Positions 780-43,402 of a stretch of DNA of 64,000 nucleotides are shown here, one piece after another; position 1 is the first letter of the stretch, and the number at the start of each line of letters is the position of its first letter. The notes beneath the pieces are model-generated. The model saw only the letters and a list, made by a program, of their open reading frames with translations. It was not told the DNA's origin and did not search any database. Where the stretch lies: contig NC_044296.2 of assembly GCF_004027225.2 (NCBI RefSeq), forward strand, positions 5,513,943 through 5,577,942. Direction: 5' to 3'. The position numbers and the translations under genes are program-made. Source of the stretch: Strigops habroptila. Its lineage: Eukaryota; Chordata; Aves; Psittaciformes; Psittacidae.

Positions 780-1500
780 CAGCCCCCCCGGTCCCATTGC
801 TCCCAGCGACCCCAGTTACTCCCCCCACACTGCTCCCATTATCCCCAGTACCCCATGGCTGCTCCCAGTGGCCCCAGCGCCCACCCTCGGGGTCCCAATG
901 GTCCCGACCCCCCTCCCCACTGCTCCCAGTGATCCCTGTACTGCCCATACTGGTCCCAGTAACGCCACTGCCTACACGAGGGGGGGTCCCAGTCACCCCA
1001 GTACTGCTATACTGTTCCCAGTGACCCTCGTACCCACTCATACATGGTGCCCCCAGGGTCCCAGTGACCCCAATACTGCCCATACTTGTTCCAGTCACCC
1101 AGTACCTACTCAAGATGAGGTCCCAATCACCTCAGTATCCTCAAACTGCTCCCAGTGACCCCAGTAGCCATCCAAGGGGTGGTACTTAAAACAAGGTTCC
1201 AGTCACCCCAGTACCCCCCCACTGCTCCAAGTCAGCCCAGTATTCATCCAAGGGGTGGTCCCAGTCACGCCAGTACTGCCCATACTGCTCCCAGTCACCC
1301 AGTACCTACTCAAGATGAGGTCCCAGTGACCCCAGTGCCCCCACCACTGCTCCTAGTCGCCCCAGTACCCACCCAAGAGGTGCTCCCAGACACCCCAGTA
1401 TCCCTGCCACTGCTCCCAGTCACCTCAGTAGCCCCCACAACTCCCAGTGGCCCCAGTACTGCTCATACTGGTCCCAGTCACCCGGTACCTACTCAAGACA
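780..1500. repeat. Degenerate minisatellite with CCCCAGTAC / CCCAGTGACC core
   Basis: About 720 bases of imperfect short units, pyrimidine-rich on the plus strand, repeating CCCAGTNACCCCAGTAC-like words with ACTGCTCCCAGT spacers. It fills the space between the HMG20B promoter and MFSD12 and creates spurious long frames. The same CAGTAC/CAGTGC words recur near 39.1 kb and at 43.07-43.40 kb. Confidence 0.8.
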
Positions 1501-1599
1501 CGCTCCCGGTACCAGCCGGGCGCCGTTCGCAGCCCCGATGCTGGCGCAGGCAACGGCGGCCCAGCGGTATGCCGGGAGGTGGGGCACAGCCAGCCCCGG

Positions 1600-1678
1600 G
1601 GGGAGGACGGACGGACGACACCGGGACAGCCCCGCCCCGCCCCGCCCCGTCCGTCCGCCTGTCCCAGCCCGGCCCGGC
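1600..1678 (+). promoter_or_regulatory. GC-box cluster immediately upstream of MFSD12
   Basis: Overlapping CCCCGCCCC boxes (about 1632-1652) lie about 30-50 bases before the MFSD12 ATG in CpG-rich DNA without a TATA box. They are probably core promoter or 5'UTR of a TATA-less gene. Confidence 0.5.
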
Positions 1679-4600
1679 ATGGCGGAGCGGGAGCTGCCGC
1701 TGCCGGTGCCGGTGCGGGCAGCGGAGGCGCTGCCGCTGCGGGCGCGGTTGAGCTTCGCGGCCGGGCACTTCCAGAACGACGCCTGTGCCGCGCTGTGGTT
1801 CACGTACCTGCTGCTGTTCCTGCACAGCGCGCTCGGCTTCGGGCACCGCGCCGCGGGCGCGCTGCTGCTGGCGGGGCAGCTCGCGGACGGGCTCTGCACG
1901 CCGCTGCTCGGCTACGAGACCGACCGCTCCGCCGGCTGCGGCCGCTACGGCAGGAGGAAGTCCTGGCACCTCGCCGGTGGGTGCCGGGGATGCGCTTGGT
2001 GGAAATGGGTGGCCCCAGGGGAGCCTTTTGGGGTGTGGGGTCAGCCCTGGAGGTGCCTTTCCGGGGTGCGCTGGGGGGGGCGGAACTGAGGGTGCCCGTC
2101 CAGGGTATTCAGATTGGAGACGGGTGGGGAAAAAGCACCAGGCGGGCTTTTCTGGGGTGTCCTGGGTGGGGGACACCCGGATGCCTTTCTGGGATGCTCT
2201 GAGTGGAAATGGATGGCCCTGGGGGTACGTTTCTGGGGTGTCCTTGGTGGGAGAACACAGGGTGCTTCTCCAGGGTGCTCTGGATGGAGATGGACGCTCC
2301 TGGGGGAGCCTTTCTGGAATGGCTCTTGAGGAGCCCTTCTGGGGTGTCCTGGGTCGGGGACACCAGGGAGCCTTTCTGGGATGCTCTGAGTGCAGCTGGA
2401 TGGCCCCAGGGAGCTTTTCTGGGGTGACCCTGGGTTACGGAACAGAGGATGCCCATCCAGGGTACCCTGGGTGGAGATGGGTGGCCCGGGGGAGCCTTTC
2501 TGGGGTGCAGGATCAGCCCCTGTTACCTTTCTGGGGTGCCCAGTGAGGGGGGAAGACATCAAAGGTGCCCTTTGGAGATGCCAAGTGGAGAGGGATCCCT
2601 CAGGCACAGATGGGGAAGGGACACTGTGATGTCCCCATCCTGCCTGGGGGCACCGTCCCCATCCCAGTGTCCTGTGACATAGTGGCTGGTGCCGCCTAGG
2701 GCTCCGCTGTCCCTCGGGCCATGCACTGTGTGTCCCTGTGTGCCCCCATGTGTGGGTGTCACGGAGCCCAGGTAAGAGCTTTGTGCTCAGCAGGTCAATG
2801 CTACAGCAGAAACAACATTTGGTTGGTAACATTTGGGCTTTCCCAGGAGCCGGGGGTTCACCAGGGCCTTGCCTGTGGCCAGGCAGCGCTGGGTTGTCCC
2901 TAAGGGTGACCCTGGGGCTCTCTTCTGCACTGGGGCAAGCAGCCAGCGCCTGGGGAGACAGAGCCCTGTGGGAATGCAGAGGAGGCACCGGTGGCTCGGA
3001 GTTGAGTTATTGACATCTTGCGTCGTGCCTTGGGGTCAAACAGACTGCAGGGAGGTGCAAGGGCTGGTGGGGACGCTCGTGGTGGGGTCAGCGTGACCTG
3101 GAGGAGGGTCCTTGGTGTGCAGGAGCCTGCCCCAGCCGTGCAGAGCAGTTGTGGGGCAAGTTGGCGTGAAGAAACGGCTATCCACAGCCACAGATAAAGA
3201 CCCTCAATGGTAACACCAGAGTGGATGCACACGCAGAGGACAGTTGTAGCATGGGGTGGTCTTATCTTAATCCCAAACTTATCTTGGCTAACCACTTTGT
3301 GCAGCCCAGCGATAGCCCGATAAGGTGCCTGATGTCCCCAGAGTGCTGCCTGGTGAGTCAGGGAGGGGTTTGGAGCTTCACCCCCCTCCGTGGCTCAGCT
3401 CAGATTTAGGGAAGTGGCTGGTGCTTTTCGTGCCCCCTCCCTGGGCAGCTCTGCTTCTTGCTGCTCCCAAGGGGAATTCCTGGATCACCCTTCCCAGCTT
3501 CAGCAGCATGGCTGGAGGCTGCTTCCCTGCCCAGAGCAGGGGTTGTTATCCCCAGAAGTGGGCTGATGGCAGGTCCAGCAGACCTGGAGTGGTGCCGCGC
3601 TCATCACGCTATGGCAGAGATGCTCCGTGTGGGAGCTTGCTGGCAACCCGTGCTCACAGCAGAGGAAGCTTATGAAACCACAGCCCCGGGGATGGTTGTG
3701 GTGCAGACACCACGAGTTGCTATCGGTGGCATCTCCCCACTGCAGCACTGGGCTCCCGGTGCCGGCGGTGCTGGTGGCTCAGCACCACACCAGCTCTTCC
3801 TGGGGGGCAGTTGCCAGCCATAAAGGTCTGGGAAGGACTAATGTCTCTCTGCTGCCTGTGTGAGCCAGTCTGGTGGTGCTGTCCCAGATTCCCTGCCCAG
3901 GGAAGCCTGGTATTCCTGTGATCCTGCTGCTTCTAATCCTGCCCCGTGGGGCCGGTTGGTGAGAGCGGGCACCAAGGGTGGGAAAAGGGGGAGTTTTGGC
4001 TGCTCCCATGGCCTCGCTTGGGCAGTGTGGGCTCCCCAGCACCCATTTGGCTCATGGTGGACCCAGGGTATGGGGGTGCAGATGTATGGCAGAGGAGCCC
4101 AGCTCTGGGCGGGTGGCCCTGGTATGCGATGGTGGTGATGGGCACAGGGGTGGATGTGGAGGCTGTAGCAGCCTGGGGTGTGCAGCTCCTGCCCCAGAGC
4201 TCCCCTGGGGCTGCCCTTAGGGGATGCAGAGCTCGACCCTGGCAGGGCTTGGTTAAAAAGGAGCCAAGGAGGTCTGGTGCGGTTGGAACCTTCTCAGACC
4301 CTTCCTGTCCCTGGGGCTTTTCTGGGGCAGCCACTGTGGTGTGGCCAAGTCCTCTGTGCTTCCGAGAGCTCCTGGAGCACCAGAGCTGGTTGTGAGCCAG
4401 TGCAGGGCAGCACCAGCAGCCTGCCAGGGCACTTGTGTGGGAAAAATCCACGCTGGGATTGTGGCTGCCTGCCCTTGGCGCAGGGAGAACTGCTTTGCCC
4501 CAGCCCTGTGGTAGTGATGAGGTGAGAGGAGGACCTTAGGGACTGGCAGAGCGGCGGTCGGTGCCCTCAGCAGTGCCCGGTGAAGCTGGGAACACACAGG

Positions 4601-12010: not shown

Positions 12011-14468
12011 ATGCCGGCGAAGCTGAGGAGAAGCCGAAGGGGGACGCTGGAGGCGAAGCGGTGGCAGAGCCTGGAGGAGAGGGGCAGTCCTCGGCCGCGG
12101 TGTCCCGTGCTCACCAGGTGGGTGCTGCATCTCATAGGGTCAAGTCCCTGGGGCGCAGAGGACACGGTGTGTGCACAGCAGCCAACCCCTGCCTACTGCT
12201 TCCTGCCAGGTCCCAGACCTGCGACCCCTCCTTCTGCAAGCAGACAGAGCCGGGTGCCGTGGGCAGGGGCGAGCAGGGACCTCCGTCCCCACCGGTGAGT
12301 CTCAGGGACCAGGAGGGGGGACCCCCGCACCACCATCCCGGCGGGACGCTGGGCCAAGTTGGGGCCCATCCTGGTTTTGTGGCAGAGCTGTGGTGCAGGG
12401 TCCTGCCCCACAGGTGCCCAAGGGAGCTGCTGGGTACCATAAAGCCTTCGGGGAGCTGGCGGCACGTGAGACGCTGCTGTTCTGCTCCTCCTGTGCCTGG
12501 CACAGAGATGTGCCCTACCATGGCCGCCTGTACATCTCCTCCAACCACCTCTGCTTCCACGCCAGCCTCCTGCGCAAGGACGTCAAGGTGGGATGGGGCT
12601 TGGTGTGGGGCAGCGGCTCTGGCAGGGGCAGTGACATCACCTGCTGTCCCTGCACAGGCAGTGGTCCCCATCGCCTCCATCTTGTCCCTCAAGAAGACCA
12701 ACATGGCGCTTCTGGTGCCCAATGCGCTCAGCATCCACACAGCCACAGGGGAGAAGGTGAGAGTGGGACAGGGGCAGTGCTGGGGGCTGGATGGGGTGTC
12801 CTGGTTCCTGTGCCTGAGGGAGCAGCTCTGGCACAAGCCCTTTTCCCACCCTCCGACAGTTCCTCTTCATGTTGCTGCGCCGGCGCGAGGCCACGTACCG
12901 GCTCCTGAAGTCCCTCTGCACACACCTGCAGGTAGGGGCTGGGGGGCTCTGAGCCCACCATTGCAGGGCCATGGGGGTGGTGGCACCCCCACCTGCATCT
13001 CTGCTTGTCCAGGACAATGACTGGAGCCCTCTGGCCTCTCTGAGCAATGAGGAAAGCCTTAAGGAGCCCCTGGTAAGGCTGGCAAATGGTTGGCAGATGG
13101 GTCAGGGCAATCCCAAACACAGGCTGGTGGAGAATGGATTGAGGACAGCCCTGAGGAGAAGCTCCCCATGGCCCGGCTTCAGTGTGCGCTTGAGCCCAGA
13201 CCCCCCCCCGAGTGCTGGGCTGCACCCCCAGAGCGTGAGCAGCAGCTCAGGGAGGGGATTCTCCCCCTCTGCTGTGCTCTGGGGAGACCCCCCCTGCAGT
13301 CCTGATCCAGCTCTGGGGCAGCAGCACAAGAGGGACGTGGAGCTGCTGGAGCGAGGCCAGAGGAGGCCCCGGAGCTGCTGCGAGGGCTGGAGCAGCTCTG
13401 CTCTGGAGCCAGGCTGAGAGAGCTGGGCTGCGGCAGCCTGGAGAAGAGAAGGCTCCTGAAGGGGAGACCTTAGAGCAGCTCCAGTGCCTAAAGGGGCTCC
13501 AGGAAACCTGGAGGGGGCTGCGTTCCTCGGGGACATGCACCATGACTGGAGCTTGTCCCCTTTCAGACCTCGAGCCAGTCGGACCTGGAGCAGAGCACGT
13601 TGGAGCCCAACAGTCTCCGGGCGCTGCCGGGTGAGTGGCTGCAGCATGGCCCGTGCCGCCTGCTCTGTGTGTACCCTCCCCCTGCCCACCCCAGCGGGGG
13701 TCACGCAGCCCTTGGCCACCTCCACAGCATCTCCCACAGCTCCTGTGCCCCGTGGGGGCCCTGGGACCTTCTAGTCCCTGCCACAGGGCACCCACTGAAT
13801 GGCTCCTGGTTGCACACAGATGGGCTGAGCTCGACGCCGAGGCAATCAGAGGAGGAAGAGGATGATGAAGAGGCGGCAGCGCTGGTTCTGAGCAGCAGTG
13901 AAGGGGAGCCCTTTGCCAAGCCCCACAGCCCCTGGGGTGGGTCAGGGCCCTGGGGAGGGGGATGCTGCTGGGGCTGGACTCTGGCTCCAGACAGAGCCAA
14001 CCCCAGCACTGTCACCATCTTATCACAGCAGGGGGACCCCACTCCACACTCTGGGCCTGGAACACCACCACTCAGCTGAGCCCTCTCACCACCATCATCA
14101 TCATCTACCTGCTGCTGTGAGTCCCTGGGTCCTGCTCACACCCCTTAGGGCACCCATTGGGTCCCCATCCCCACTGTCCCCCAGCACCCAGAGACGCTGC
14201 AGTGGGGGACGGGCAGCCCAGGGCTCTGCTCCTGCCCTGTCCCCGCTGACCGCTGCTGGCCTGTCCCCAGCGTGGTGGCCCTGCTGCTGTCCTCGGGGTA
14301 CATCGCCCTGCGCACCCTGGAGCTGGAGCAGCAGTTGGCGGCCGCAGCGGCTTGGCCGGGCCTCAACCTGTCACAGCAGTAAGTGGAGGGGCTGAGGGGG
14401 ATCCTCTGTCCCCAGCACAGCTGGGACCCCCTCATCCTGCCTCCCCCCACAGGTACAGGACGAGATGA
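12011..14468 (+). CDS. GRAM-domain, tail-anchored membrane protein, GRAMD2A-like (11 coding exons)
   Basis: Exons: 12011-12117, 12210-12294, 12414-12587, 12658-12756, 12860-12931, 13013-13072, 13567-13630, 13820-13936, 14029-14116, 14271-14378, 14453-14468; phases join into 329 residues. Residues about 65-180 form a GRAM domain matching human GRAMD2A closely (RLYISSNHLCFHASLLRKDVK, then VVPIASILSLKKTNMALLVPN and LLKSLCTHLQ). An acidic, serine-rich linker follows (EEEEDDEE). A hydrophobic helix at about 275-298 (TTIIIIYLLL joined to VVALLLSSGYIAL) precedes LELEQQL, like RLEQQL at the GRAMD2A end. GRAMD2A sits at ER-plasma membrane contacts and binds PI(4,5)P2; a similar role is inferred. I know no such gene here in human. 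The start ATG is the least certain part, since an upstream exon could exist. The last donor GTAAGT overlaps an in-frame TAA. Confidence 0.8.
13125..13530 (+). mobile_element. CR1 LINE fragment lacking its 3' end
   Basis: CR1 sequence in intron 6 of the GRAMD2-like gene, from GAGGACAGCCCTGAGGAGAA to GGGGCTCCAGGAAACCTGGAG. It stops before the usual CR1 3' block and tail. It matches the copy at 35305 almost word for word through the ACGTGGAGCTGCTGGAGCGA region. Missing the 3' end is unusual for a LINE and points to a later deletion. Confidence 0.85.
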
Positions 14469-17938: not shown

Positions 17939-20900
17939 TTATCGTATCCTGGTGAAGAGGTTGAGAACGGATACTGACTCCTGACAAGAGAAGACAAGGC
18001 AGGGGCTAAGTACCGCAGCACTATTCCACCTGCCCTTTGGGGTCTGCAATAAAACAACTGCTGGCCTGGTGAGGTATCACCAGCTCGGGGCATGAGCTGA
18101 GCTCTGCACAGTCCAACACCATCAATATTCCCATAACAAGGAGCATGGCAGGTAAGCGAGCCATTCCCACAGCTCTGCAGGAAGCTGCACCCCAGTGACC
18201 ACCACCAGCTCCCCAGCTCAGTCCTGCTCTCTGCCATTCTCAGCTGCCTCTGGCAGACACCCAGCAAAGCTCTCGCAGCTCTGGCACAACGCTCTCGGGG
18301 AAGGCGGGTTGTCAGCTGCAGCATCCACGATCCTATTCCCATCCACGCCACCATTCTAAGCAGCTTTGGAAGGAGCCAGGGAATAATGATCCCTGAGGAC
18401 CAGGTCAACTCATCACAGCATGCTGGGAGGGAAGATGGTGGGCTCAGGGTGAGCTCCCCAAAATGCTGCTGTGTTCAGCAGCCCTGTAACGGCCAGGAGA
18501 AGGATGTCCTGTCCCTCTGCCTTGGGCACACAGAGGCAACCTTTATATCTCAGCAAGTCTAATCCTTCACAGCACCCAGCCCTCTATCTGCAGGATATGG
18601 TGACGAGATCAGAGGCAAGGCAGCGGAACAGAGCGAGCTTGGACTGAATTGACCCCCAAAGGCAGGACACAGCTGCAGCCATGCACACAACACACACATC
18701 TTCACCTTCGTCGAGCGAGTTTTGCTGAAGACGTTCCAGAAGCGCAGGGTTTCGTCTCCAGCTCCTGTGACTATGGCCTCCCCATCAGGGGACATTGCCT
18801 AAGGCCAAGAGAGAGCAACCTTTAGCATCTGTTTCATTTTTGAGGCTGAAAACAAATCTTCATTGGAATGCAAGAGAAATTTATCTCTCCTTTCTACTTG
18901 GTGAGGAACCAAATAACTACCTCTGCTTTTATGTGCTGTGTTCAGTCTCAGTAGGTGCCAATTCAAGCACTTGCATATTATTTACACAGCTATGGAACAC
19001 ATGGGTAGAATTATCATAAAAAGGATTCTTGTGTTAGGAACTCCAAGCCATTTGTAATTGAGGCAACTCCTCCCCACATTCTAAATATGTGTTAAGGCAG
19101 GACGTGTGATAGGACTGGCATTTGCCAGCTCTATTAGTCACTTTGGTTGGAATCCACCTCACAAAACAGTATTTATCACCTCTGTTATGAATCTGCCACT
19201 GAAAGCCCTGTGTAACAGTAACAAAGCAGGTATGGGATCGATGGGGATTAACTACACCAAGCATTTTAATGACAAATTAGGAAGACTGAAAGCATCAAAT
19301 TCTTCCTCTGCTGGCAGTCACCAGTGAAAAAGCAGACGAGTCTTAAGGGAACAAAAATTGATGCTTCTGCTTCCTTAGAAGAGTTTTGGCAGGCTTTGCT
19401 ATTCATTAATAAAACCTCACATTTCCATAGCAGCAAAGGAAAGTAACCCTTGCAGGCAAGGAAACCAGATCCAAAGCATTTTCCACTGCTCATAGGGCAG
19501 CATTCATACCTCCACCTAGACTACAGGCAGCTTACAGTGCCACTGGCACTGTGGCTTTGGGTCTCATCTTCAGCACAGAGAGGAGCCCCAACGAGATGCT
19601 TTATCTGCAGCCAGATAAAGCAGCTACAGCAGTTACAGAGGTTTTCAGCAACGTGGCCATCACTCACCAGATACAAGACTCGGTATGAGTGCCCCGTGAG
19701 CTTTGCTACTTGAGTTAAGGAGGGATATTTCCAGACAAGGATCTGGTTCTGCGAGTAGCCGTGGGTACTCACCTGGAAGGGGAGAGGGAAACATGCATCA
19801 AGCTTCTGAACAGGAGACAGCTCAGCAGTAGGACTGCACAGGAAGGAACTTACCAGCTCATTGGCATGTTTGGACCAGGCCAGGTTGCACACTTGTGACC
19901 CGGTGTCAATGCACTGCAAGGGCTGCCCCGTGAGCGTGTTCCAGAAGCGTATGCAGCGGTCAGCAGTGCCACCGCCGGAGGCGAGGAGCCCGTGCTGGTG
20001 TGGAGACCAGGCAATAGCTTTTACTGCTGCCAAATGCTCGGTGTACTGTTGCACAGGACTCAGGCTGGAGTGATTCCAGACAAGGAGCTGGCAGAGAGGA
20101 GAGACATGATCAAACTTGCACTGCAGTGGGTGTTACAGACACACGACAAACCACGATGTTGCACCGGGACCGATGAAAGCAGTTGAGCAACAAGATGGTT
20201 TCCCACAGCCTTGCCCAAGCACATGCATCTCCACTCTGCACTTGGCAGCCCTGGAGCCAGTCCTACCCTGCCACCACCTCAGCTAAGGAGCCATTCTGAG
20301 GGCCACAGTCACAGAATCCCAGCCTGGTTTGGGTTGAAGGGACCTTAAAGCTCATCCAGTTCCAACCCCCTGCCACGGGCAGGGACACCTTCCACTAGAG
20401 CAGGTTGCTCCAAGCCCCTGTGTCCAACCTGGCCTTGAGCACTGCCAGGGATGGGGCAGCCACAGCTTCTCTGGGTACCTGCATTAGCAGCTCAGCCCTG
20501 CACTATTTTTGCTAGGAAGGACCACACCAGCTCAGCCTCAATGCTCCAAGTAGGTCTATCTCTTAGGATGAGTGCTGAGGGTTTAAAGTAAGCTTAGGAA
20601 GCCAAAGACATGCCATCACTAAACATGACTCAAAACCTTCTTTTGTCTTTATGGCTGTATTATTCCAGAACACATTTAGAAATCTGCTCAGGTTCATTAG
20701 AAGTTATTCTGAGCAGGAGGAAGTGGGTACAACCACGCTGTCACACAGGCACTGGGCAAATGCATTACCTAGCAACCTGCTCCAAAGGGCTCTGTGCACT
20801 GCTTCTCCACAACAGATGCTTCTTCCATATGGTGCTCAGTGAACTACAAGCCTGCATTATAAGTATTAAAACTTCTACAGCTCTAAACTTAGTTTCCTTC

Positions 20901-23900
20901 TGCATAGATAAACATTACTGCAATAAACTTGACTATATTCTACCTAAATAAAGTCAGGAAGCACAGCTTACCAGTAGCTTTGTTGCACTCAAACCCCTGA
21001 GTCAAGCTCTAGATTTAATTAGCCAAATACAGAAGCAAAATTAAATTTGCCTTGTTAATTTTATTAGAGAGAGGAGGCTGAGGAGAGGCTCAGCATGATT
21101 TGGTTGGACAGAGTCCAACAGCTGAAACAAAAACCCCTTTCAGAGAGGACATATATCCTTAGAGGAAGGGGGTCTGCTGTTTTTCTTGGTGAAGATGTAG
21201 AAATCCTGAGCCTTACATGGCTCCTTGGCAGTACCATACCTTGTTGTCGTTCCCTCCAGAGGCCAGGAGCTGGTGGTCTGTAGACCATTTGAGCCCACAC
21301 ACCTCCTGCCTGTGGCCCTGGAGCCGCCGCTCAGACTGCAGTGGGGGTGTGCGGATGTCCCTCTGGAGGATCATCCGGTCTCGACTCCCAGAAGATAGCT
21401 GGTCAGCATTCCATGCTAAGGCACCTGGAATGCAGAGAGAGCATAGGAGCACGTTGTGGGAGTCCTGCAGGAGCGGGGAGGCAGAACACACCCCACAGTT
21501 GCCAAGGTTTTAAAAAGATAAAGAAAAATCAGTGCTGATGGACCTCCCTTATATCCCTCTGAAGTCCTCAGAGTAGTGTACAAAGGAAGATTAACCTGCA
21601 CAAGCTTACTGAAGGTATCACTCGTCCCATTTCACAGTGCAATAAAGCACAGAAACAGAACTTGGAGAGTGCCTTGACTTCCCAAATGTCACTCCAGCTT
21701 TCAGATTCACAGCACCTCTGAACAAAGAAAACAGTCCCCACAGAATAGGGGAACTGGAAATCTCAGTGTAGAGCTGCCTGCTTGCAGGGCTAACACAGGA
21801 AGCCAGTGGCAGTGAAAAAAGATGTTGTAACCAAACCTAAAATGCCTCAAAGACGGCGGAAACAGCAGCTGCAAGACTCCACCACCACCACACCCAGGGT
21901 CAGAACATCACAGTGATGATATTTTGAAGACTGCTGAAGACATAGCACTATCAATTCTGGTTGAGTTCTGTTATTTCAAGCAAATCCCTCACACAGAAGG
22001 AGAAAGTTCGATCATGAAGAAACAAAACATGTGAAACCTCTGCCTCCCACCTCCTTACCAACTCTGGCTGTGTGCCCCTCCAGCATGGAGAGCTTTTTTC
22101 CTGCAGCTGCATCCCAGATCTGTACAAAGCCCTTGTGAGTGCCAACAGCTACCAAGTTCCCCTAGAGAAACAGAAGACCACAATCAGTAAAGCCAGTAAG
22201 TACAGACAGACATAAAGCAAAAGCTAGAAGCTGAGGAAAAGACTTGAGATAAATCCCACAAAATGGAAAACATCCCAAGCTCTTCCATCTTACATCTTTT
22301 CCCTACTGAGAGTGCCAAGCAGCCTGGCTGCAATATATTTATTGTAGCATTTTATTGTCAAGAACCAGAGGAGCCAACTGGCTCTTTCTCCCTCCCACAG
22401 CTCTTTGCAAATACCTCGAGAACCTCAAGATACAAGAGACTGCTTTCTATCTCCTCTCATTTAGCAAAAAAACCAGCGAGGACAGGAAACCACATTTGAT
22501 TTGTGATGCATACAGGAAGTTTGGGAAAATACAGGAAAAACAACCCAAGAAATGAAAGCTGTAAGGAAGAGCTATACAGCTACCAGGAGAGGGCCTAAAT
22601 TACGGGTTTTTCAGCTATTGAGATTGACAATGTTATACTGACCCGTTCTGACCAGCCCACAGATGTTACAGAATCTCCTTCCACAGAGAGATCACACAGC
22701 CGGGTTACCTTGGGAGTAGGACAGAATGGAGTTAAGGAACACTTGCTGTTGTCAAAGCACACTATTAACTGTCTCACTGACTAGTACCTAGTTTGGGGCA
22801 GAGCATTGCGAGTGCTGGATCCCTGACACAGCACCTCCTGTAGCTCTGGAAGATGCTACAGCAACGGCTGCCTCACTCTCCTGACATGGATGATCATTTA
22901 CCTGGCTCGTACAAGCGCTCCACAAGTAAACACAAGTCCCAAGGCCAACGCTGAGCACGTTCAGAGAGGACCAGTCCACCAGGTTCAGGTAGAAGTCATC
23001 CTGCAGCTCTGGGGCATCCAGCACTTTGAAAGGAATCTTGGAGATTTTCCGAGTAGGTTTTCGAGGTGATCTGAGCAGCTTCTGACTGTTTACAAAAACA
23101 GACATAAAAACAAGGACAGGATCTTACACGTGGCAGCAGATGGTAGGCACAGATGTAGCCACTCTTCAAAGCACACCTGCATGTCTACAGAAACACATAC
23201 AGAGGCTGCAACATTCTTTCCAGACTGGAAAGAATTAGGTTCTGATGCTATAAAGGAGCTGGGGAGCAAAGAAGTAAAACTGACTACTGCAAGTTGGCCG
23301 AGAGATCTAGGCATGATGGGCACCTGCAGACATTCTTATAACTTGACTGTCCCTACTTATTACCTCCTCAGATTCTTAAAACCACTTCGCATAGCAGCTC
23401 TTGGTGTCTTAATAAAAAGCCCTAGAGAACACAGGGAATCCTCTGTCCTAAGCCTTCCCTTCTCGCTCTCTACGGAGAATCAGTATTACCTTTTGTTGCT
23501 GACAGGAGACAGGGAATACGGTGAGACCTCGTTGCCATCATCTGGACTAGAACGTTTTGTGCTGAGCGAATACTGCATAAAGAAAACACATCCAGTAAGA
23601 GCCCCAGCACAACCAGGACTTTGGCACAACACACACTGGTGCCCAATGCCTGGCTAACTCCAACAGCCACAGCCAGATTTTCCAGACTTTCCAGTTCCTC
23701 CCTTTCCCAGGTGCTCCAGAACCACACAAAAAACCTCATCTCTGCTGAAGGCCTAAAGTTTGATTTGGTTATTTACCACACTGCCCAAAAAAGCTTGGTT
23801 CCAACTCAGCTTCCGGGCCAGCACAGAAATAGGAAGTATGTAGCTTGCTGCAGATCCTTCTGTTCTCCTTGCAGGCCACCCAACTTTGTTACCAACAGCT

Positions 23901-25729
23901 TATCTCAGGCAAGGCACAGCACTACCTCACTGGCCCCAGCAGCTTGGCAGAACCAGGTGCTTTGTTCCAGTGACACACACACGAAACCTCTGCTGGTTTT
24001 AATGCCAAGTAACGCACTTACAGTGAAGAGAGACTTCTTCTCTGGGGTGGACGGCTGCAACCTCCTGTCTTCTGTCTGTGGGTCTTGCACCTTCTCGATC
24101 CCTGCTCCTAAGAGTTCGTTCTTCAACAAGGCAGAGTAGGCAAGGCCATCTGTGAACCCAAATGTGTGCTTAGGCGGGGAGCTGGGCGGCAGCAAACAGC
24201 TCCACAGGGAGCAGCAGGATCACACTTGCACATTCACAGGGCCTCTTAATAAGCCCGGAGCCACAGTTTGGAATCAAAATTAGCAGCAAGCTCCCCCTCC
24301 TCCCAATCCATCAGGAAAGTGCTTCCAAGGCACAACAAATCAAGAGACACAAACAGCCTCACGCTTCCCAGACACTTCTCAGGAGCCTATTGAGGTTGAC
24401 TCGGGATTCACTCTCGTGATGAGGGCATTTCCTAACACACCAGCATGAGTTTTTCCATAAGCATTGAAGTATCAGTGTTCCCTCAATTTCCAAACTTGCC
24501 AACAGAGTTTGGAGCAAAAGCTGAGCACGGCGCAAGCGATAGGAGTGTGGCCTCACCTTTGCCATTATCTGATGTAGCATCCTTTGCTTTTCTGTTCTGA
24601 CTTGGTGATTTTTCATTTTCCTGAGAGGGAGAAACACACTTTCACCACACAGAAACATCATGACACGTGGTAAAACAACAAGTGAAGAAGTCTCCTGGAC
24701 CACAGGGGCAGCCTGTCTGAAGACATGCACTCAAAGGAACTCTTCTGGGGCAGCAGAAGACAAGCAGAGCAATCATGCCAGCCATTTCCTCACTTCCAAG
24801 ACTGTGCTGCAGGAGAGGGGAGGAAAACTTACATTTATTCTGTGGAAGTTGATGCTCCAGTTGGCCCCAGCTCTTGAGGGAATGAATCTGTCACCATGCT
24901 TACTAGGAGAAGACATGGGAGAATTGGAAGGCGTCAGGGTTCTTCTCATCTCTGCTACCTGAATTAAAAAGACACATATGAGAAAAAGTGTTGATCACAG
25001 CAGGGGTCTGAAAAACATCAACAGAGTCTTGTCAAAGCTGACTGTGCTGAAGGAGAAGAGCCAAGCACTAGTTTATCCCCTTCACAGAACCAGTAAGCAC
25101 GTCAGAGTCCAACTGTCAGGGGAACATCTGTCAAGAGAAGCCAAACAGCCTCTTCCCCAGTGCTCCCTGTCACAGCGCTGCTGCCACGGCAGGCCCCAGG
25201 AAGGTGGAGCAGCGCAGACCGTGCCGGGCGAGCAGCACGTTCCCCACCTGCGCTCACAGGCTTTTTCAGAGAACCACTTCTCTTGGAAGGGACCCCCAGC
25301 TCAGACCAGGGCTGATTTCAACCATCTTGGTGGCCCCCATTGGACTTGTTCTATCTTGTCAAGCCCTGCAGTTGGTCGGTTTGTTGGTTAGCCCCCAGCT
25401 TTTCATGTTCCACATGTGCTTACCGAGATCATTTAGTAGGAAGGCAATACTAAGCTACATTAAAAATATCTTAACTCCCTGTTGTTGAAGTCATTTGGTT
25501 GCTCTAGAACAGCTCAGGAACTCACACCTGCTCACAGCCCAACACTAAGGTTTGCTTCAAAGAGATCCCATCTCTTTTAAAAGCTCAAGTGAAAACAGTC
25601 ACAGGCAAGAAAACTTACTAGTCAGACCAAGAGCACCCAGAAGAGCCCATCTGTACTCACACAAGGCATCATGTTCTCATTCTGTATGTTGATTTGGCGT
25701 AGGAGACGTCTCTCATAATCCTGGTCCAT
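17939..25729 (-). CDS. FZR1: FZR1 (CDH1/fizzy-related), APC/C co-activator (complete, 13 coding exons)
   Basis: FZR1 activates the anaphase-promoting complex in late mitosis and G1 and selects D-box and KEN-box substrates. Coding exons, 5' to 3': 25729-25661, 24958-24833, 24620-24557, 24149-24022, 23572-23490, 23085-22902, 22708-22643, 22161-22059, 21424-21240, 20087-19854, 19772-19668, 18798-18706, 17980-17939. Phases join to 493 residues. It begins MDQDYERRLLRQI, carries the C-box GDRFIPS, then seven WD40 repeats (for example LASGGNDNK, WSPHQHGLLASGGGT, GAGDETLRFW) and ends in the APC-binding tail FTRIR. Near-identity with human is obvious. It ends STK-ESVSVLNLF, the human form lacking VKW. 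The ATG exon extends non-coding to about 25806; the upstream non-coding exon lies in the CpG island near 30.98-31.06 kb. Confidence 0.97.
20310..20480 (-). mobile_element. CR1 LINE, short 3' end
   Basis: Reverse-oriented CR1 3' block in an FZR1 intron, starting with CACAGAATCCCAGCCTGG and truncated after TTCTCTGGGTACC. Confidence 0.9.
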
Positions 25730-29399: not shown

Positions 29400-29545
29400 C
29401 TTCTGTACAGAATCATTTAGGTTGGAGAAGACCTTTAAGAGTCCGACCATTAACCCAACACTCTCGTGTCCACGTCTCTGAGCACCACTTCTTTTAAACA
29501 CCTCCAGTGAAGGGGACTCCACCGCTCCCCTGCACACCAGGAGCT
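29400..29545 (-). mobile_element. Older CR1 LINE fragment
   Basis: Reverse-oriented, with AGAATCATTTAGGTTGGAGA, AAGACCTTTAAGA and CCAACCATTAACCC-like words. It belongs to a different, more diverged CR1 subfamily than the other copies and lies in FZR1 intron 1. Confidence 0.8.
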
Positions 29546-30549
29546 GACAAAAGGGAAGTACCTGGACCCCAGGGACACAGGATCTTTACGAAGGTGGAGT
29601 TTTTCCATGTGAGGCATTCCAGACTCAGAGGACTTTCTCAGGAGTAGAGGGGATCCCAAGAAAGGCCACTCACTTGGATGTGTTTTGGAACCTTTTGTAG
29701 GACCTTCAGGCTCTTTTGCTTGGTGGGGTTTTAGCAGTTTCTATGCTAAAAGCCAAGATTAAGAATTCCCCAGAAGCCTTGTCCATGGAGCTATTGCAAA
29801 GTCTGCTTCATCAGAACCTCTAATCTGCTGGAGCTGCAATGGTCAACAACAGAAAGTCAGAGAATTCAGACAACGCAGCAGCTTCAATAGAGGCTTCAGC
29901 CAACAGCCCCAGAAAATAATAAAGTTAATTATTACATTATAGCCCTGTGTTAATAATAAAGTAAATCAGGCTTTAGTATGCCATGCTGTTGCCAGCAAGG
30001 GAGTTGCTCTGTGAAGAACCTTGGGCACAAACCACTCTGCAGGCATCACTGCATCCACTGATGGGAAGAAGAACACAATGCCTTCAAGGAAGGGAATTAT
30101 CCATGCAAGAAAGCCCCCAACACTTTCAGCAGATGCCTCCAACATGGCCCAAAGGCTCTTGTGAGCTTCAACAACTCCTCCTCTCCTCCAGCACCCCAGG
30201 ACGATGCTCAGGTTGGACTTCCAAGACCTCAAGCCTGTAACTGGCTGAACATGCGACTGTGCCCCCCACATTGACCAGACCCTAAGGAAGGATGCGGTGA
30301 GGTTTCACTCCCGCAGACCCCCCGGAAGCCATCGGGTGGACAATGGCGCATCACCAGCGTGTTCTGGGCACGAACCAGCCACTTCTGATCCAAGTTTCTG
30401 TCACTGCTGGGGTGCTCTCATACCAGAGCCCGCACCAGGCAAACCTCAGCCACTGCTCACGGTGTCTCTCTGGCCAAGAAGCCAAGGACGGGGGAAGCCA
30501 CGACAGCGGCGCCAGCCACGGTGTCAGCTCACCTGCCTGGCGCAGCGCC

Positions 30550-32000
30550 GGGTAAAGGCTCTACAGAGCCTGGAGCCACCGGGGACGCACACGGGCCCCT
30601 GCCCCCGGCTCTAGCGCATCACCGCAGAGCCCTGACCCAGCGCCGGGCGGCGGCTCCGAGCCGGGAGCAGAGTCGGCCCCGTCCTGCCCCGGCATCGCGG
30701 GCGCACGCTGGGACGGAGCCGTTGGGGCGCCGGCACCACTCGCCAACCGCCCGCGGCGCGGCTGCCCCGGCGCTGCCCCGCAGGGAGGACACCGCAGGCT
30801 GCGCCCCGCTGCCGCTGCCCCAGCCCCGCGCCGGGCCAGGCCCGCCTGGCCCCTCCGCAAGCCCGGCGGCCCGCGGGCAGGGACAGGCCGCAGCGCCCAG
30901 GCCGCGCCGCCGTGACATCGGCCGCGGCCGCAGCGCCACAGCCCCGCCGCCCGCCAGCCCTACCTGCCGGCCCCCCCCACCTACCTGCCGGCCCTGCCCG
31001 CCCGGCGCGGCCCGGCCCCGCTCCGCCTCCTCCCGGCAGGCTCCGCTGCCCCGAGCGCTCTGCAATATGGCGGCCGCCCCCACGGCGCTGGCCACGCCCC
31101 TCACGGCACTGGCCACGCCCCCCACAGCGCTGACCACGCCCCCCAGCGCTGACCGCGCCCCCCGCGCGCGGGGCACGACGGGAGCGCGCCCCGCCCCCTC
31201 CGTTCGAATCAATACAGGAAGCGGCGCCATGGCAACAGCCTCGACGCCGGTGTGGGGGCAGCGTCTGACGTCAGCTATCAGCGCGCTAGCGTCACGGTTC
31301 TGACGTTGCTTCACGTAACCCCCTCGCTCCGGTGCGGCCTAGTTCCGGCCGCGGCCCCTGCGCCCGGTCCTGCCCCGGGGCCGGGGTCACGCTGCCCGCC
31401 CCGCCCCGCCCCGCCCTGCTCCCGGGGCTCGCTGCCCGCTGCGGACACCGCGCGGCGGCCCGAGCAGGCCCGCACCCTCCGGTAACACAGCCCGAGCCCC
31501 GGTGCGGCCCCGCGGTGCGGGACCCGCCTCCTCCAGCGCGGCCCCGCGGCCCCACCGCGCTGCGGAGGCGACCCCGGGCGACAGAGCCGGGGCCCGGCGG
31601 CCCGGGGGGCGGGGAGGAGGCGGCCGCGCTGTGCCCGTCCCGCCCCCGCAGCCGCCGTGACCCCGCGGCCGGTCGCTTCCCGCGCGGCCCCGGCCCCGGT
31701 GTGAACATGCGGGAGCGGCTCGTGGTGCTGCTGTGCGCGCTGGCGCGGCGGCGGGCGGGCGGGCGGCGGGCCATGCCCGGCACCGGCGCCTGGGACGGGC
31801 CTCAGCGGCGGGCCTGGCTCCGGCACTACTACAGCCAGCGGCAGAAGCGCCTCATGACGGTGACCGCGGCGGGCGCGACAGGCGGGGGGGGGAAAGACGT
31901 GGGAACACGGCCCGCGGGGACCGGGAGCGGGGCGGGGGCGCGGTGGGGGGTGAAGCGCGGGGGGGAGGGATGGGGGACGCAGAGGTGGCAAGGACACAAA
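30550..32000. promoter_or_regulatory. CpG island: likely shared promoter of FZR1 (-) and the Harbinger-derived gene (+)
   Basis: Extremely CpG-rich DNA. Two GTAGG donors read leftwards (near 30961 and 30980) could end the FZR1 non-coding exon. A consensus YY1 site GCCGCCATATTG sits on the minus strand at 31063-31074. Four roughly 20-bp tandem units of the form GGCCACGCCCC (31078-31160) resemble KLF/SP sites. A full palindromic CRE TGACGTCA lies at 31266-31273. The rightward gene starts translation at 31707. The arrangement suggests a bidirectional promoter; transcription start sites were not seen. Confidence 0.7.
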
Positions 32001-33709
32001 GGGTGAGGGACATGTGAGAGATGCAGCGGGGAAGCAAAGGACGTGGCACACAAAGGACACGTGGGGACACAGAGGTTGGAGCTGATGGGCGATGTGGGGC
32101 ACGGAGATGGGGACGTGAGATGGGGCGATATGAAGGGTGGCGGCGGCTTGAAGAATGTGAGCCCAGACACAGAGGGTGTAGAAGACATGGGGATGTGACG
32201 GTGGGGGGCACAAAGGACAGGGAATAGGAAGGGCCTAAGGACACTGAGGCAAGCGGGAGGTGGGGAACACCATCCCAGAAGGGGCCTTTTCTGCAGCCCC
32301 TTGTCCAGGGTCACGACCACTGCCCAGTGGTGGTGTGGTCGGGAGCACCAGCTGCCTGGCACCGGGTGGGTGGCTGGAGATGGAACTGGGTAGTCTTGGG
32401 AGGGCGTGGGCCAGAGAAGCAGTGTTCAAGGCCAGGTTGGACACAGGGGCTTGGAGCAACCTGCTCTAGTGGAAGGTGTCCCTGCCCATGGCAGGGGTTG
32501 GAACTGGAGGAGCTTTAAGGTCCCTTCCCAACTGTTCTATGGTTCTCTGAAGCACCACCTCATTCCCCTCGTCTCCCCTCCACACTGCAGCTCCTGATCG
32601 CTCGCCGGAGGAGAACCAGCTGCTACTTCTACCCCCGCGCCTGGCCCGGCGTCAGGGGCGCAGACTGGTGGGAGCGGGTGGTGCTGAAGGAGTTCAGCCC
32701 CCGGGACTGGCTGGAGAAGTTCCGGATGTCCAAGGAGACCTTCTTCTACATCTGCAACCAGCTGCGTCCTGGGCTGGCTCCACACAGCGCCCACTTCCAC
32801 CCCACGCTGCCCCTGGAGAAGAGGGTGGCTGTGGCTCTGTGGCACTTGGCCACCAACGTGGAGTACCAAACTCTGAGCCCTCTCTTTGGTGTGGGGCCCT
32901 CCACGGTGCAGACTTGTGTGCGGGAGGTGAGCTACGCTGTTGTCTTGCTGCTGAAGCCCCTTTACCTCCGGCTACCCAGCGAGAAGGAGCTGGAGAACAT
33001 GGTGCGCATCTTCCGCACGCGCTGGGGCTTCCCGCACTGCATCGGTGCCCTGGACAGCCTTCACATCCCCATCCACCCGCCCCTGCGCCTCAGTGCTGAC
33101 TACTGCAACGGCCAGGGCTGGCATTCCATCCTTACACAGGCCACTGTGGACGGGCTGGGCCAGTTTTGGGATGTCTCCACCGCTTTCCCCGGCAGCATGG
33201 AGAACAGCGCGGTACTGGAGAGCTCCAGCCTGTGGGTGCTGGCCAAGGAGGGCCGGTTGTGCCCCAACCCTCCCAAGCACTTCATGGGGAAGGCACAGAA
33301 GTATGTGCTGCTGGGTGATGCCACCTATCCCTTGCAAGACTGGATCCTCAAGCCCTACCAGGAGGATGAGACCCTCACTCAGCGGCAGCTGCAGTTCAAC
33401 TACCGCCTGAAGCGGGCACACAGCGTGATTGAGAACGCGTTCCTGCGCCTGAAGGCGCGCTGGCAGATCCTCCTCAAGTGTGACGACTGCAGCCTGGAGC
33501 TGCTGCCCACCCTCGTCCTTGCCTGCTGCATCCTGCACAATGTCTGTGAAGCCCACGACAACCCCTTCAACCAGGAGTGGCTGGAGGGCACTGAGCCCAC
33601 CGAGCTGCCCAAGCCCTGCCAGCCCGCGCCCGCCGCCATGGAGGATGGACGGGCCGAGCAAGTGCGGGAGCTCATGTGCCAGTACTTCGAGAGCTGCGGG
33701 GAGGGATGA
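31707..33709 (+). CDS. PIF/Harbinger transposase-derived (HARBI1/ALP1-like) DDE nuclease-family protein, intact
   Basis: Two exons, 31707-31859 and 32591-33709, join in phase 0 to 423 residues. Exon 1 encodes a very basic 51-residue start. A helix-turn-helix-like region spans about 126-165 (LEKRVAVALWHLA to GVGPSTVQTCVREV). The DDE_4 fold follows with its acidic triad apparently complete: D206 in GALDSLHIPI, D294 in LLGDATYPLQDW and E332 in VIENAFLRLKARW. The C-terminus adds an acidic/proline tail. Exon 2 is a single 1,119-nt frame without stops. A spliced 5' exon in a CpG island, intact frame and no obvious flanking terminal inverted repeats suggest a domesticated host gene like HARBI1 rather than a live transposon. 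HARBI1 works with the Myb-like NAIF1; no such partner is encoded here. The cellular role is unknown. ATG at 31773 (MPGTG) is an alternative start. Confidence 0.85.
32413..32548 (+). mobile_element. CR1 LINE, very short 3' end just before exon 2 of the Harbinger-derived gene
   Basis: Starts at CAGTGTTCAAGGCCAGGTTGG and ends at CTGTTCTATGGTTCTCTG, 43 bases upstream of the exon 2 splice acceptor at 32590. Confidence 0.9.
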
Positions 33710-34089
33710 TGGGACTGGGGAGGGATGACAGGACCGGGCGGGAAGGAGCAGCCCTGCACATCCCTGCTCATGGACTTCTTCCAGCAGACGTTGGCCCAGT
33801 GGTACCGTGCTGCTCGGGAAAGGACTGTGTCCTCCCATGTCTACTAAGGGCTGCTGGCTGCGTTGGCCATTCCCAGGATGGGGAAAGGGGGTGGCTGCAT
33901 TGTGCTTATCCTGGTTTTGCCACTGGTTTCAGGCAGTGGAATGTATTTTGTGCCCTTTGCTGTCTTCCAGGCATGGAGCAGTCTGGTGGTGTGTTGTGTG
34001 AGGAAAAGCGGGGGATTGGGGCTGGGTGGGTGTGTGCTGCCTGGGTTTCCCTTTCTGGGGAGCGTAGCTCTGTCTCAAGGTCCCTCTGT
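33710..34089. other. Intergenic/3'UTR stretch after the Harbinger-derived gene
   Basis: No coding region supported. It should include the 3'UTR of the upstream gene; no AATAAA was seen. Confidence 0.4.
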
Positions 34090-34640
34090 CAGGCTGAAAC
34101 CAGGAGGACCCCTTGAAAACAGTCCAGGCTTGGGGCAGAGCAGCTGGAAAGCCGCTCATGGAAAAGGACCTGGGGGTGCCGAGTGACAGAGCTGAACATG
34201 AGCAGCTTGTGCCCAGGCAGCCAAGAAGCCACCAGCATCTTGGCCTGGATCAGAAATAGCGTGGCCAGCAGGACCAGGGCAGTGACCGTCCCCCTGCACT
34301 GGGCACTGGTGAGGCTGCACCTCGAATCCTGTGTCAGTTCTGGGCCCCTCACTGCAAGAGAGACATTGAGGTGCTGGAGCGGGGCCAGAGAAGGGCACCG
34401 GAGCTGGTGCAGGGCCTGGAGCACAAGTGTGATGAGGAACGGCTGAGGGACCGGGGGGGGTTTAGTCTGGAGAAGAGAAGGCTCAGGGGGGACCTTATCG
34501 CTCTCTCCAACTGCCTGACAGGAGGATGGAGCCAGGAGGGGGCTGGTCTCTGCTCCCAAGGAACAAGGGCTGGGACAAGAGGAAACGGCCTCAAGCTGCA
34601 CCAGGGCAGGTTTAGATGGAGATTGGAACAATCCGTTCTC
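34090..34640 (+). mobile_element. CR1 LINE, about 550 bases including the end of ORF2
   Basis: Sense-oriented CR1 covering the C-terminal coding part of the reverse-transcriptase ORF (GAAAAGGACCTGGGGGTGCC, CAGCCAAGAAGCCACCAGCA) and the following region (GCTGGAGCGGGGCCAGAGAA). It stops about 190 bases before the DOHH first exon, without the usual tail. The subfamily differs from the 13125/35305 pair. Confidence 0.9.
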
Positions 34641-34649
34641 CCGCAGCCC

Positions 34650-34963
34650 GTGTCCCTCCCCAGAGCCGTCCGCCCCAGCCCCGGGGCCCCGCTCCCGCCC
34701 CGCCTGGACCCTCTCGCTGCTCCGGGGCCGGTCCCGCTCGGGGCGGGGGGGGGGGGAGCTGCAGCACCACCCATGGGCGGGCCCGGAAGTGCAGTGGGAG
34801 GAGCCGCTGGTGTGGTCACGTGAGGGAGCAGCATGGCGGCGTGCGGTGAGTGCGGTCGCGGCCCCGTCCCCGTCCTTCCCCCGGGCGCGGCGCGGGGCCT
34901 CCCTCACTCCCTCCCCCCCCCCGTGTGCAGGACCGTGACCGGAGCCCGCTGCCCGCCGGTGTG
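34650..34963 (+). promoter_or_regulatory. DOHH: DOHH promoter, non-coding exon 1 and uORF
   Basis: CpG-rich. A CACGTG E-box in GTCACGTGA context lies at 34817-34822. A likely first exon ends at 34845 before GTGAGT, and the 85-base intron ends in a CAG at 34928-34930. The spliced leader would contain an upstream ORF: ATG at 34833, reading MAACGP then TGA at 34936-34938, ending 25 bases before the DOHH start. Confidence 0.6.
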
Positions 34964-37738
34964 ATGGTGACGGAGGAGGAGGTGGCGGCCGTGGGCCGGG
35001 CGCTGGTGGACGCGGTGCAGCCGCTGCCCGCCCGGTTCCGGGCCCTCTTCACCCTGCGCAGTCTGGGCGGCCCCGCGGCCGTGGCCTGGATCGGCCGCGC
35101 CTTCGGGGACGGCTCCGCGCTGCTGAAGCACGAGCTGGCCTATTGCCTGGGGCAGATGCAGGAGGAAGCGGCCATCCCGGTGCTCGTCCGTGTGCTGGAG
35201 GACACGAGCCAGGAGCCCATGGTCAGGCATGAGGCCGGTACGATGGCTGCGGGTGCAGGGAGAGGGCAGTCTGTGGGTGCTCCCGTCTGTACCAAACCGT
35301 TCCTGACGTGGAGCTGCTGGAGCGAGGCCAGAGGAGGCCCGGGAGCTGCTGCGAGGGCTGGAGCAGCTCTGCTCTGGAGCCAGGCTGAGAGAGCTGGGCT
35401 GGGGCAGCCTGGAGAAGAGAAGGCTCCTGAAGGGGACACCTTAGAGCAGCTCCAGTGCCTAAAGGGGCTACAAGAAACCTGGAGAGGGGCTTTGGGCAAG
35501 GGCCTGGAGAGACAGGCCAAGGGGAATGGCTTTAACCTGCCAGAGGGGAGACTGAGATGAGCTCTGAGGCAGAAGCTCTTCCCTGTGAGGGTGCTGAGGC
35601 ACTGGCACAGGGTGCCCAGAGAAGCTGTGGCTGCCCCATCCCTGGCAGTGTTCAAGGCCAGGTTGGACACAGGGGCTTGGAGCAACCTGCTCTGGTGGAA
35701 GGTGTTCTTTAAGGTCTCTTCTGATTCTTACCATTCTGTAACAGCCTCATCCAGCTTGGGTGTAATGGCTGGGAGAAGCCTGAGGAATACAACCGCTTCA
35801 CCACATAGCACTGGCTGGACTGGTTGGCTGAGCCTCCCTGTTCCCCCTGGCCAGGCTCCTGCCGTGGTGACTTCCCTGGCTGTGTCTTTTAGTACTGGTC
35901 AGTCAGGCCCATGTCCCCCTTCAGAGCAGGGTGAGGCTTTGCTGGAGAACCCAGCAGACACCCTGCTAACGCACCGACACATGCTTCCTTCAGGTGAAGC
36001 CCTGGGTGCTATTGGGAATCCCGATGTGCTGGATATCCTGAAACGCTATTCAGAGGATCCCGTGGTTGAGGTGAGGCTCTTGGCGGGGAGAAGGGGGTTC
36101 ATTTCCCCTGTGATGGGTCTGCAGGGCTTGGAGCAACCTGCTCTAGTGGAAGGTGTCCCTGCCCGTGGCAGGGGGATGGAACTGGACGAGCTTTAAGGTC
36201 CCTTCCAACACAAACCATTCCATGATTCTATGAAAAACCTCTTCCTGCGTGCTGACTCCTTGCTGTCTTAGCGAACCCATTCCCATCCATCCCACAAGGG
36301 CTCTGTCCTCATCCCTGCAGGTGGCCGAGACGTGTCAGTTGGCAGTGAGGAGACTGGAGTGGCTGCAGGAGAACAAGCACGATCCAGGCACCAGCCCCTA
36401 CCGCTCTGTGGATCCCGCTCCCCCTGCGGAGGAGACGGATGTCACCAAACTCCGTGAGACCCTCCTGGACGAGTCCCAGCCGCTGTTCGACCGCTACAGA
36501 GCCATGTTTGCCCTGCGGAACGTGGGGGGCCGCGCTGCTGTGCTGGCGCTGGCGGATGGTGAGGGCAGGCTCCGGGCTGTAACTCTCTATAGGGTAATCC
36601 AGGATTAGCCCTTCCCAAATCCAGAGCCTTGAGGCTCCTCTTGGGCTCTTCACATGTGTGTTTCTGGAGCTGCTGCCCCCTGCTTGCTTGCAGGAGCCAC
36701 ATTGCAAAGCACTCGGTGCTCTCTTGCGTTTCACAGCCCCTGTAATGTCCTCCCTTGCTCCGTGGGTCCGGGTGGGAGAGAGCACAGGCTGTAACATTGG
36801 CTTGGGACCAACCAGTCTGACCTGGTGTTTCTTGGTAGGACCCGGGCCCTACTCTCAAGTTGGAGGCTGCCAACTTCCTCCTGGGATTTGGGAATAGCTT
36901 TGGAGAGGGGAGTGAGTGTCTCCTGAGTGGGGAAGGGGTAAACCACAGCCCAGGGACTGTTTGGGCCCACGGCCCAGCGCAAGGGAAGTGCCTGAGGCTC
37001 TCCAGCCATCTGGGACGAGTTGAGAGCACATGTGCATGAGCTCCTGCTGCAGCTCTTCAGCCCTGCAGCACAGCAGGACTTGAGGTTGAGCTGCCAGCAC
37101 CCGCCAGGCACCTTGTGCTGGTGGAGCAGGGTCCATGGGCAGCGCAGGTTCCCCAGGGCAGGCAAAGGGGCCAGCAGCTCCATCGCAAGAGGGTCTCTCT
37201 GTGCCAGAGCTGCTGTGGCTGTGCAGGCTCGGAGCAGGGTGGGACACCCCTTCCCGTAGGTGTTTTGTCCCCTTCCCCAAACCCCCGTGGGTCTGTGGCA
37301 GTGACTGCCAGCTCTAACCCCCAGGGTGTGCTCCCCATGGCTTTGGGGTTGGGTGTGCGGCTCTGACCACACACCCAGTGCCCTTTGGGGCCGCGGCAGC
37401 TCACTCTCTCCTCTCCCGCAGGACTGCGCTGCAGCAGCGCCCTGTTCCGCCACGAGATCGGGTATGTGCTGGGCCAGATGCAGGACGAGGCCTGTGTCCC
37501 GCAGCTGACGGCCGCGCTGCGCAGCCCCACCGAGAGCCCCATGGTGCGCCACGAGTGCGCGGAGGCGCTGGGCTCCATCGCGCACCCCTCCTGCCTGCAG
37601 ACCCTGCGCGCCTTCGCCTGCGACGCGGAGCGCGTGGTGCGCGAGAGCTGTGAGGTGGCGCTGGACATGTTCGAGTACCAGAACGGGGACCAGTTCCAGT
37701 ATGCTGATGGGCTCTGCAGGCTGGAGGCGTCGGCCTGA
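34964..37738 (+). CDS. DOHH: DOHH, deoxyhypusine hydroxylase (complete, 4 coding exons)
   Basis: DOHH hydroxylates the deoxyhypusine side chain of eIF5A, the last step of hypusine formation, with a diiron-peroxo centre in a HEAT-repeat superhelix. Coding exons: 34964-35237, 35994-36070, 36321-36558, 37422-37738; total 301 residues against 302 in human. The four metal-binding His-Glu pairs are all present and at the human numbering: H56-E57 ([11 protein letters not shown]), H89-E90 (MVRHEAGEALG), H207-E208 ([11 protein letters not shown]) and H240-E241 ([11 protein letters not shown]). The two halves show the expected internal symmetry. The start is fixed by the MVTEEEV opening, after a short uORF in the leader. 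Intron 2 and intron 3 contain CR1 copies. Confidence 0.97.
35305..35745 (+). mobile_element. CR1 LINE, about 440-base copy in the first intron between DOHH coding exons
   Basis: Sense-oriented, from GGAGCTGCTGGAGCGAGGCC through the full 3' block to a short TTCTTACCATTCTGTA tail. Same subfamily as the copy at 13125. Confidence 0.9.
36120..36235 (+). mobile_element. CR1 LINE, short 3' end in DOHH
   Basis: Starts at GGGCTTGGAGCAACCTGCTC about 50 bases after a DOHH exon and ends with an ATTCCATGATTCTATGA tail, the clearest CR1 8-bp terminal repeat in the window. Confidence 0.9.
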
Positions 37739-43071: not shown

Positions 43072-43402
43072 CCCCAGTACAGCCCGGTGCAGCCCAGTAC
43101 AGCTCAGTGCACCTCAGTACAGCCCAGTGCACCCCAATCCACCCCAGTACAGCCCCGTACAGCTCAGTGCACCCCAGTACATCCCAATACGGCCCAGTAC
43201 ACCCCAGTACAGCCCAGTGCTCCCAGTGCACCTCAGCACAGCCCACCGCAGCCCAGTACAGCTCAGTACACTCCAGTGCAGCCTAGTACAGCTCAGTGCA
43301 CCCCAGTACAGCCCAGTGCACCCCAATCCACCCCAGTACAGCCCAGTGCTCCCCAGTACATCCCAATCCAGCCCAGTACAGCGCAATCCACCCCAGCGCA
43401 CC
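43072..43402. repeat. Minisatellite with CAGCCCAGTACA / CAGTGCACCCC units
   Basis: About 330 bases of regular tandem units built from CAGCCCAGTAC, CAGCTCAGTGCA and CACCCCAATCCA words, just beyond the NFIC 3' end. A 40-base island of the same repeat lies near 39.1 kb. Confidence 0.9.

Follow-up and report, generated by a model that had tools for sequence, protein, structure and literature searches.

A probable host gene of PIF/Harbinger transposase origin between FZR1 and DOHH in Strigops habroptila

Gene content and the CpG island

The stretch of DNA analyzed here (the window; 64,000 nucleotides of a Strigops habroptila contig, C21 in our numbering) contains, in this order, an MFS-type gene, a GRAM-domain exon, FZR1 on the minus strand, a transposase-derived gene on the plus strand that we refer to as the FZR1-side gene, and DOHH on the plus strand. 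The labels FZR1, DOHH, and MFSD12 are our own assignments, made from Pfam families and resemblance to the known proteins. The MFS-type gene runs from position 1319 on the plus strand, and its match to MFS_2 scored 25.8 bits, just under the cut-off of 27. The GRAM-domain exon (12138-12905, plus strand) was recognized by Pfam between the MFS-type gene and FZR1, and no such gene is known to us at the corresponding human position. FZR1 was represented by CDC20/Fizzy WD40 stretches at 19524-20132 and 22791-23123, with an initiator exon at 25729, and DOHH by HEAT-repeat stretches at 34850-35557 and 37394-37735. A minisatellite with the 10-base unit CCCAGTACAG occupies 43073-43382, with approximately 31 copies at 73% matches. 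The sequence-only reading, made before this analysis, had placed the transposase-derived gene beside FZR1, and it indeed sits between FZR1 and DOHH on this contig.

A CpG island spans 30251 to 32250. The 500-base windows starting at 30251 to 31751 had a GC content of 0.68 to 0.82 and a CpG observed/expected ratio of 0.74 to 1.01, compared with ratios of 0.07 to 0.51 for those starting at 29501 to 30001 and at 32001 to 34251. The proposed start of the FZR1-side gene lies within this island, upstream of FZR1, so that the two genes stand head to head. The island covers the start region of the FZR1-side gene and, by inference, that of FZR1, and from this arrangement it is likely to be a two-way promoter shared by both genes.

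Coding frame and domains of the FZR1-side gene

The predicted protein has 423 amino acids encoded in two exons (51 + 372). Exon 2 (32591-33709, plus strand) encodes the transposase-derived protein in 372 undamaged codons (32591-33706), followed by a stop codon ending at 33709. The proposed exon 1 (31707-31859, plus strand) is uncertain; it consists of 51 codons that are basic in character, begins with an in-frame ATG with A at position -3, and is joined in phase 0 through a proposed intron (31860-32590) whose acceptor, CCACACTGCAG, is preceded by a pyrimidine-rich tract. When the sequence was read again, the coordinates, frame, and length originally given for the gene were found to be correct, and the claim that its frame is free of damage held over all 372 codons of exon 2. 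The claim of a separate basic first exon fared less well: the frame is kept, but the donor is weak and the exon unproven. This donor, ACG/GTGACC at 31860, scored 0.54 bits, and approximately 11% of the GT dinucleotides in the window scored higher, while it was still the top scorer among the five phase-0 donors available to the ATG at 31707. An alternative donor at 32003 (AGG/GTGAGG, 4.96 bits) would join an 11-codon exon beginning at the ATG at 31970. Judged from these signals, the proposed exon 1 appears to be the weak part of the gene model.

The codon-usage score of exon 2 was 130.7, against 41.7 for the next-best open stretch of the window, a score that is partly circular because exon 2 itself was among the training sequences. 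The interval between the stop codon and the start region of DOHH, the next plus-strand gene (33710-34850), lacks the common polyadenylation hexamers: 15 of the 17 hexamers tried, including AATAAA and ATTAAA, were absent from it, and only AAAACA (34116) and GGGGCT (34018 and 34539) were present. The 3' end of the gene is therefore less certain.

The domain content places the protein in the PIF/Harbinger transposase superfamily, for which we required a DDE_Tnp_4 match above the curated Pfam cut-off of 24.8 bits. The match at 33050-33541 (plus strand) scored 93.6 bits (E = 1.2e-26) and covered the profile from 1 to 158 of 158 positions; exon 2 also matched Plant_tran in Pfam (1.6e-11). All three catalytic acids named by the sequence-only reading were confirmed in their motif contexts, D206 in GALDSLH (33053-33055), D294 in GDATYP (33317-33319), and E332 in ENAFLRL (33431-33433), and each aligned with the corresponding acid of HARBI1 from the same genome. 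The helix-turn-helix-like region that had also been reported was partly supported. HTH_Tnp_4 matched at 32807-32929 (plus strand) with an E value of 2.8e-5, but its 24.1 bits fall below the curated cut-off of 27, and thus an N-terminal helix-turn-helix is probable without formally qualifying as one. A single-sequence AlphaFold2 model of the protein reached a pLDDT of 36.8, too low to judge the RNase H-like fold of the superfamily, and a sequence search of the PDB with the protein found no solved relative.

Transposon ends and Harbinger relatives in the genome

Terminal inverted repeats had not been seen by the sequence-only reading, and a directed search agreed with it: no TWA-flanked pair was found within 5 kb on each side of the gene, at a criterion of 14 nucleotides with at most 3 mismatches and an identical flanking TAA or TTA at each end (mean of 0.2 pairs in 20 block-shuffled controls; the test would miss ends more than 5 kb away and those with more than 3 mismatches in 14). 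Without the duplication requirement, six inverted pairs of 15 nucleotides with at most 1 mismatch occurred within approximately 2.5 kb, all of them G+C-rich. Between 26700 and 38700 there were 68 inverted pairs, and the four longest among the matches listed overlap a repeat family that is also present in the proposed intron. This intronic fragment (32419-32528, plus strand) reads as the 3' end of what we take to be a CR1 retrotransposon, and it matches nine other sites of the window at 87 to 100% and a tenth, 61 nucleotides long, at 98%. Against a consensus built from 10 copies, without the one of 61 nucleotides, it shows 1 difference in 110 positions and so represents a young insertion. Dating the FZR1-side gene by this repeat was tried and rejected, since the young copy gives no deep age.

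The genome searched comprised 1.149 Gb in 89 contigs, of which C21 accounts for 5.65 Mb. A genome-wide protein search returned six matches, the FZR1-side gene itself at 100% and five others at 22 to 32%, and the gene is thus single copy at the protein level. Many near-identical copies would have spoken for a live element; at the protein level, genome-wide, none were found. A search with DDE_Tnp_4 gave 13 matches, seven of them above the cut-off. Five of the 13 belong to three intact genes, namely the FZR1-side gene, a gene on contig C4, and a gene on contig C1, and the remaining eight carry stops. A tblastn search restricted to nine loci, to which the E values refer, confirmed six of these eight (E < 1e-3 with at least one intact protein as the query) and left two (L015 and L016) without confirmation. 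The confirmed, decayed remnants lie on C5 (L012 and L017), C3 (L013), C26 (L014 and L018), and C13 (L019). The remnant L012, at 73.54 Mb of C5, was nearest to the FZR1-side gene (E = 5.5e-10, versus 3.6e-4 with HARBI1 and 0.75 with the C1 gene), and each of the other five matched the C1 gene or HARBI1 better. A scan of viral contigs, with a reach limited to close relatives, and a phage search gave no match to the FZR1-side gene; the one match in a scan of contigs from other genomes, to a frame resembling a bacterial membrane transporter, was rejected as chance.

The gene on C4 (5.996-5.998 Mb) is presumably HARBI1, judged against the human protein. Both HARBI1 and the FZR1-side gene contain DDE_Tnp_4, retain all three acids, and are intact in the same genome, but they share only 23% identity over 307 residues, and in HARBI1, whose two exons scored 56.9 and 63.0 bits against DDE_Tnp_4, a phase-1 intron immediately precedes the second Asp, a position through which the FZR1-side gene reads without interruption. 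The C1 gene (L002, 122.455-122.457 Mb; parts 617-1003 and 1447-2211, minus strand) is an intact paralogue of HARBI1, sharing with it 40.9% identity over 281 residues and the phase-1 intron ahead of the second Asp. Its first Asp is replaced by Gly and its Glu by Arg, and two of the three acids have thus been lost from an intact frame. DDE_Tnp_4 and an intact frame are common to the C1 paralogue and the FZR1-side gene (26% identity), whereas the former has the HARBI1 intron and an incomplete triad and the latter no intron and a complete triad. We therefore rejected the FZR1-side gene as the HARBI1 orthologue, which lies elsewhere, on C4, and whose intron is absent here. The intron shared by HARBI1 and its paralogue and missing from the FZR1-side gene suggests that the latter arose separately from HARBI1; loss of the intron within a single Harbinger lineage is the less likely alternative. 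Taken together, the patterns of introns, identities, and fossils suggest that at least two Harbinger lineages are present in the genome and that in each of them one gene is intact and bears the triad.

A partner protein was sought through the Myb families. Myb_DNA-bind_5 was found in at least eight exons, all eight of those listed being free of stops, and one of these (L020) reads as NAIF1. Myb_DNA-bind_4 gave at least nine matches, seven of the nine listed without stops, and neither family was found on contig C21 among the matches listed (eight and nine, respectively). On C7, three Myb_DNA-bind_4 exons without stops (L031, L032, and L033) stand in tandem within 21 kb (29.395-29.416 Mb).

A probable host gene, its rivals, and what it may do

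We consider the FZR1-side gene to be a host gene derived from a PIF/Harbinger transposase and separate from HARBI1, with a probability of roughly 0.8. It has the features by which we define a domesticated gene, being single copy at the protein level, intact, and without transposon ends, and the presence of decayed relatives with stops elsewhere in the genome strengthens this reading. The host gene proposed by the sequence-only reading stands in that it is Harbinger derived, intact, single copy at the protein level, and located between FZR1 and DOHH. Base composition adds weak support: exon 2 reaches a GC content of 0.82 at its four-fold sites, with 0.64 GC in the intron and 63% in the 3' flank, and this value is near that of the DOHH stretches (0.89 to 0.92), an argument that remains weak because host genes vary widely and FZR1 (0.42 to 0.61, some intron included) and HARBI1 (0.57 to 0.65) are lower.

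A live Harbinger transposon is very unlikely, since no TWA-flanked pair of inverted repeats lies within 5 kb, and we rejected this candidate also on the single copy at the protein level and the low identity (22 to 32%) of all other matches. A single-copy insertion so recent, for example by horizontal transfer, that it has not yet decayed is a very improbable explanation. The intact triad is compatible with it, as is the match over the whole DDE_Tnp_4 profile, which is closer to the Pfam consensus than either HARBI1 exon, and a young copy could well look intact: in simulations with 0.1 indels per substitution, the probability of finding neither a stop nor a frameshift was 0.33 at 0.01 neutral substitutions per site. 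However, such an insertion would have to be reconciled with the lack of TWA-flanked ends and of a second copy in the protein search, with the absence of Myb_DNA-bind_5 and Myb_DNA-bind_4 from C21 among the matches listed, and with a proposed exon 1 placed in a CpG island. We find it hardly credible that the gene is retired, that is, unexpressed, intact by chance, and on its way to becoming a pseudogene. The weak exon 1 donor and the lack of a common polyadenylation hexamer downstream of the stop codon would fit such a gene, but its 1,116 bases contain no stop or frameshift, for which the simulated probability at an assumed 0.1 substitutions per site is approximately 2e-5, and the relatives that did decay in this genome carry stops. 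Because the number of substitutions is an assumption of the model and the intronic repeat is young, the simulated figures alone do not prove selection.

Within the host-gene reading, a rival that we rate at somewhat less than an even chance is a domesticated protein that retained binding and not cutting and would serve, in the manner of Arabidopsis ALP1, as a structural cofactor. In ALP1, which is a Harbinger transposase domesticated as a component of PRC2, the DDE residues read DGA (PMC4671723), and the C1 paralogue has an intact frame but only one of the three acids, so that a protein of this kind can persist in this genome without catalysis. The complete triad of the FZR1-side protein is not what would be expected if cutting had long been irrelevant, although catalytic residues are no proof of activity.

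For the preferred reading, a host gene separate from HARBI1, we propose that the gene would be transcribed from the CpG island that may also serve FZR1, that a Myb/SANT protein encoded elsewhere would carry its product to the nucleus and to DNA, as with HARBI1 and NAIF1, and that the protein, once bound to DNA there, would act on chromatin or in regulation. By analogy with related systems, the protein most likely acts together with a Myb/SANT partner inside the nucleus, and dependence on a partner encoded elsewhere is probable. Transposition of the rice and zebrafish PIF elements is reported to depend on a Myb-like protein in addition to the transposase, partner interaction is required for nuclear localization in zebrafish Harbinger3_DR and in HARBI1-NAIF1 (PMC9710019), and ADF-1L, a PIF/Harbinger-derived protein of the Myb side, recruits an acetyltransferase to its own gene and a neighboring one (PMC11893794). 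Nicking activity may have been retained, as the triad is unchanged and its residues would allow cutting. The fullest version, a catalytically intact second Harbinger nuclease that is a sauropsid host gene between FZR1 and DOHH, lost from mammals, expressed from the FZR1 island, tied to the cell cycle, and guided by a Myb/SANT protein to cut DNA, we consider decidedly unlikely as a whole. The FZR1-side gene may have been lost from mammals.

Like the PIF/Harbinger transposons of zebrafish (Harbinger3_DR) and rice (PMC9710019), the FZR1-side gene encodes a protein of approximately 400 to 500 amino acids with the transposase domain and the triad. Unlike them, it has no inverted repeats or target duplication that we could find, is single copy at the protein level, and has no adjacent Myb gene among the matches listed. 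It shares its probable status as a transposase-derived host gene with Arabidopsis ALP1 and insect DPLG and LPLG (PMC4671723 and PMC9710019), which belong to other lineages. For the LPLG genes, intact coding regions, no transposon ends (as here), and purifying selection are reported. In ALP1, two of the three acids are changed and the protein is an accessory part of PRC2 (PMC4671723), whereas the FZR1-side gene kept its triad. Among vertebrate genes, HARBI1 is the one that the sources cited here name as domesticated from a Harbinger transposase, and it is described as not yet functionally characterized (PMC9710019). A Harbinger gene at FZR1-DOHH appeared in no title or abstract opening among the matches listed in a literature search that covered mostly papers outside subscription, and the gene may already be annotated in bird genomes as a HARBI1-like or ALP1-like protein.

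As judged from its sequence, the FZR1-side gene is likely to add to the known class of domesticated genes with a Harbinger nuclease fold. It would be the second gene with a complete triad, probably of independent origin, in a genome that also contains a triad-less HARBI1 paralogue and decayed fossils, and setting these side by side offers a natural way to see which Harbinger proteins retain the active site. With it, the persistence of DNA cutting in a vertebrate Harbinger protein becomes a directly testable question.
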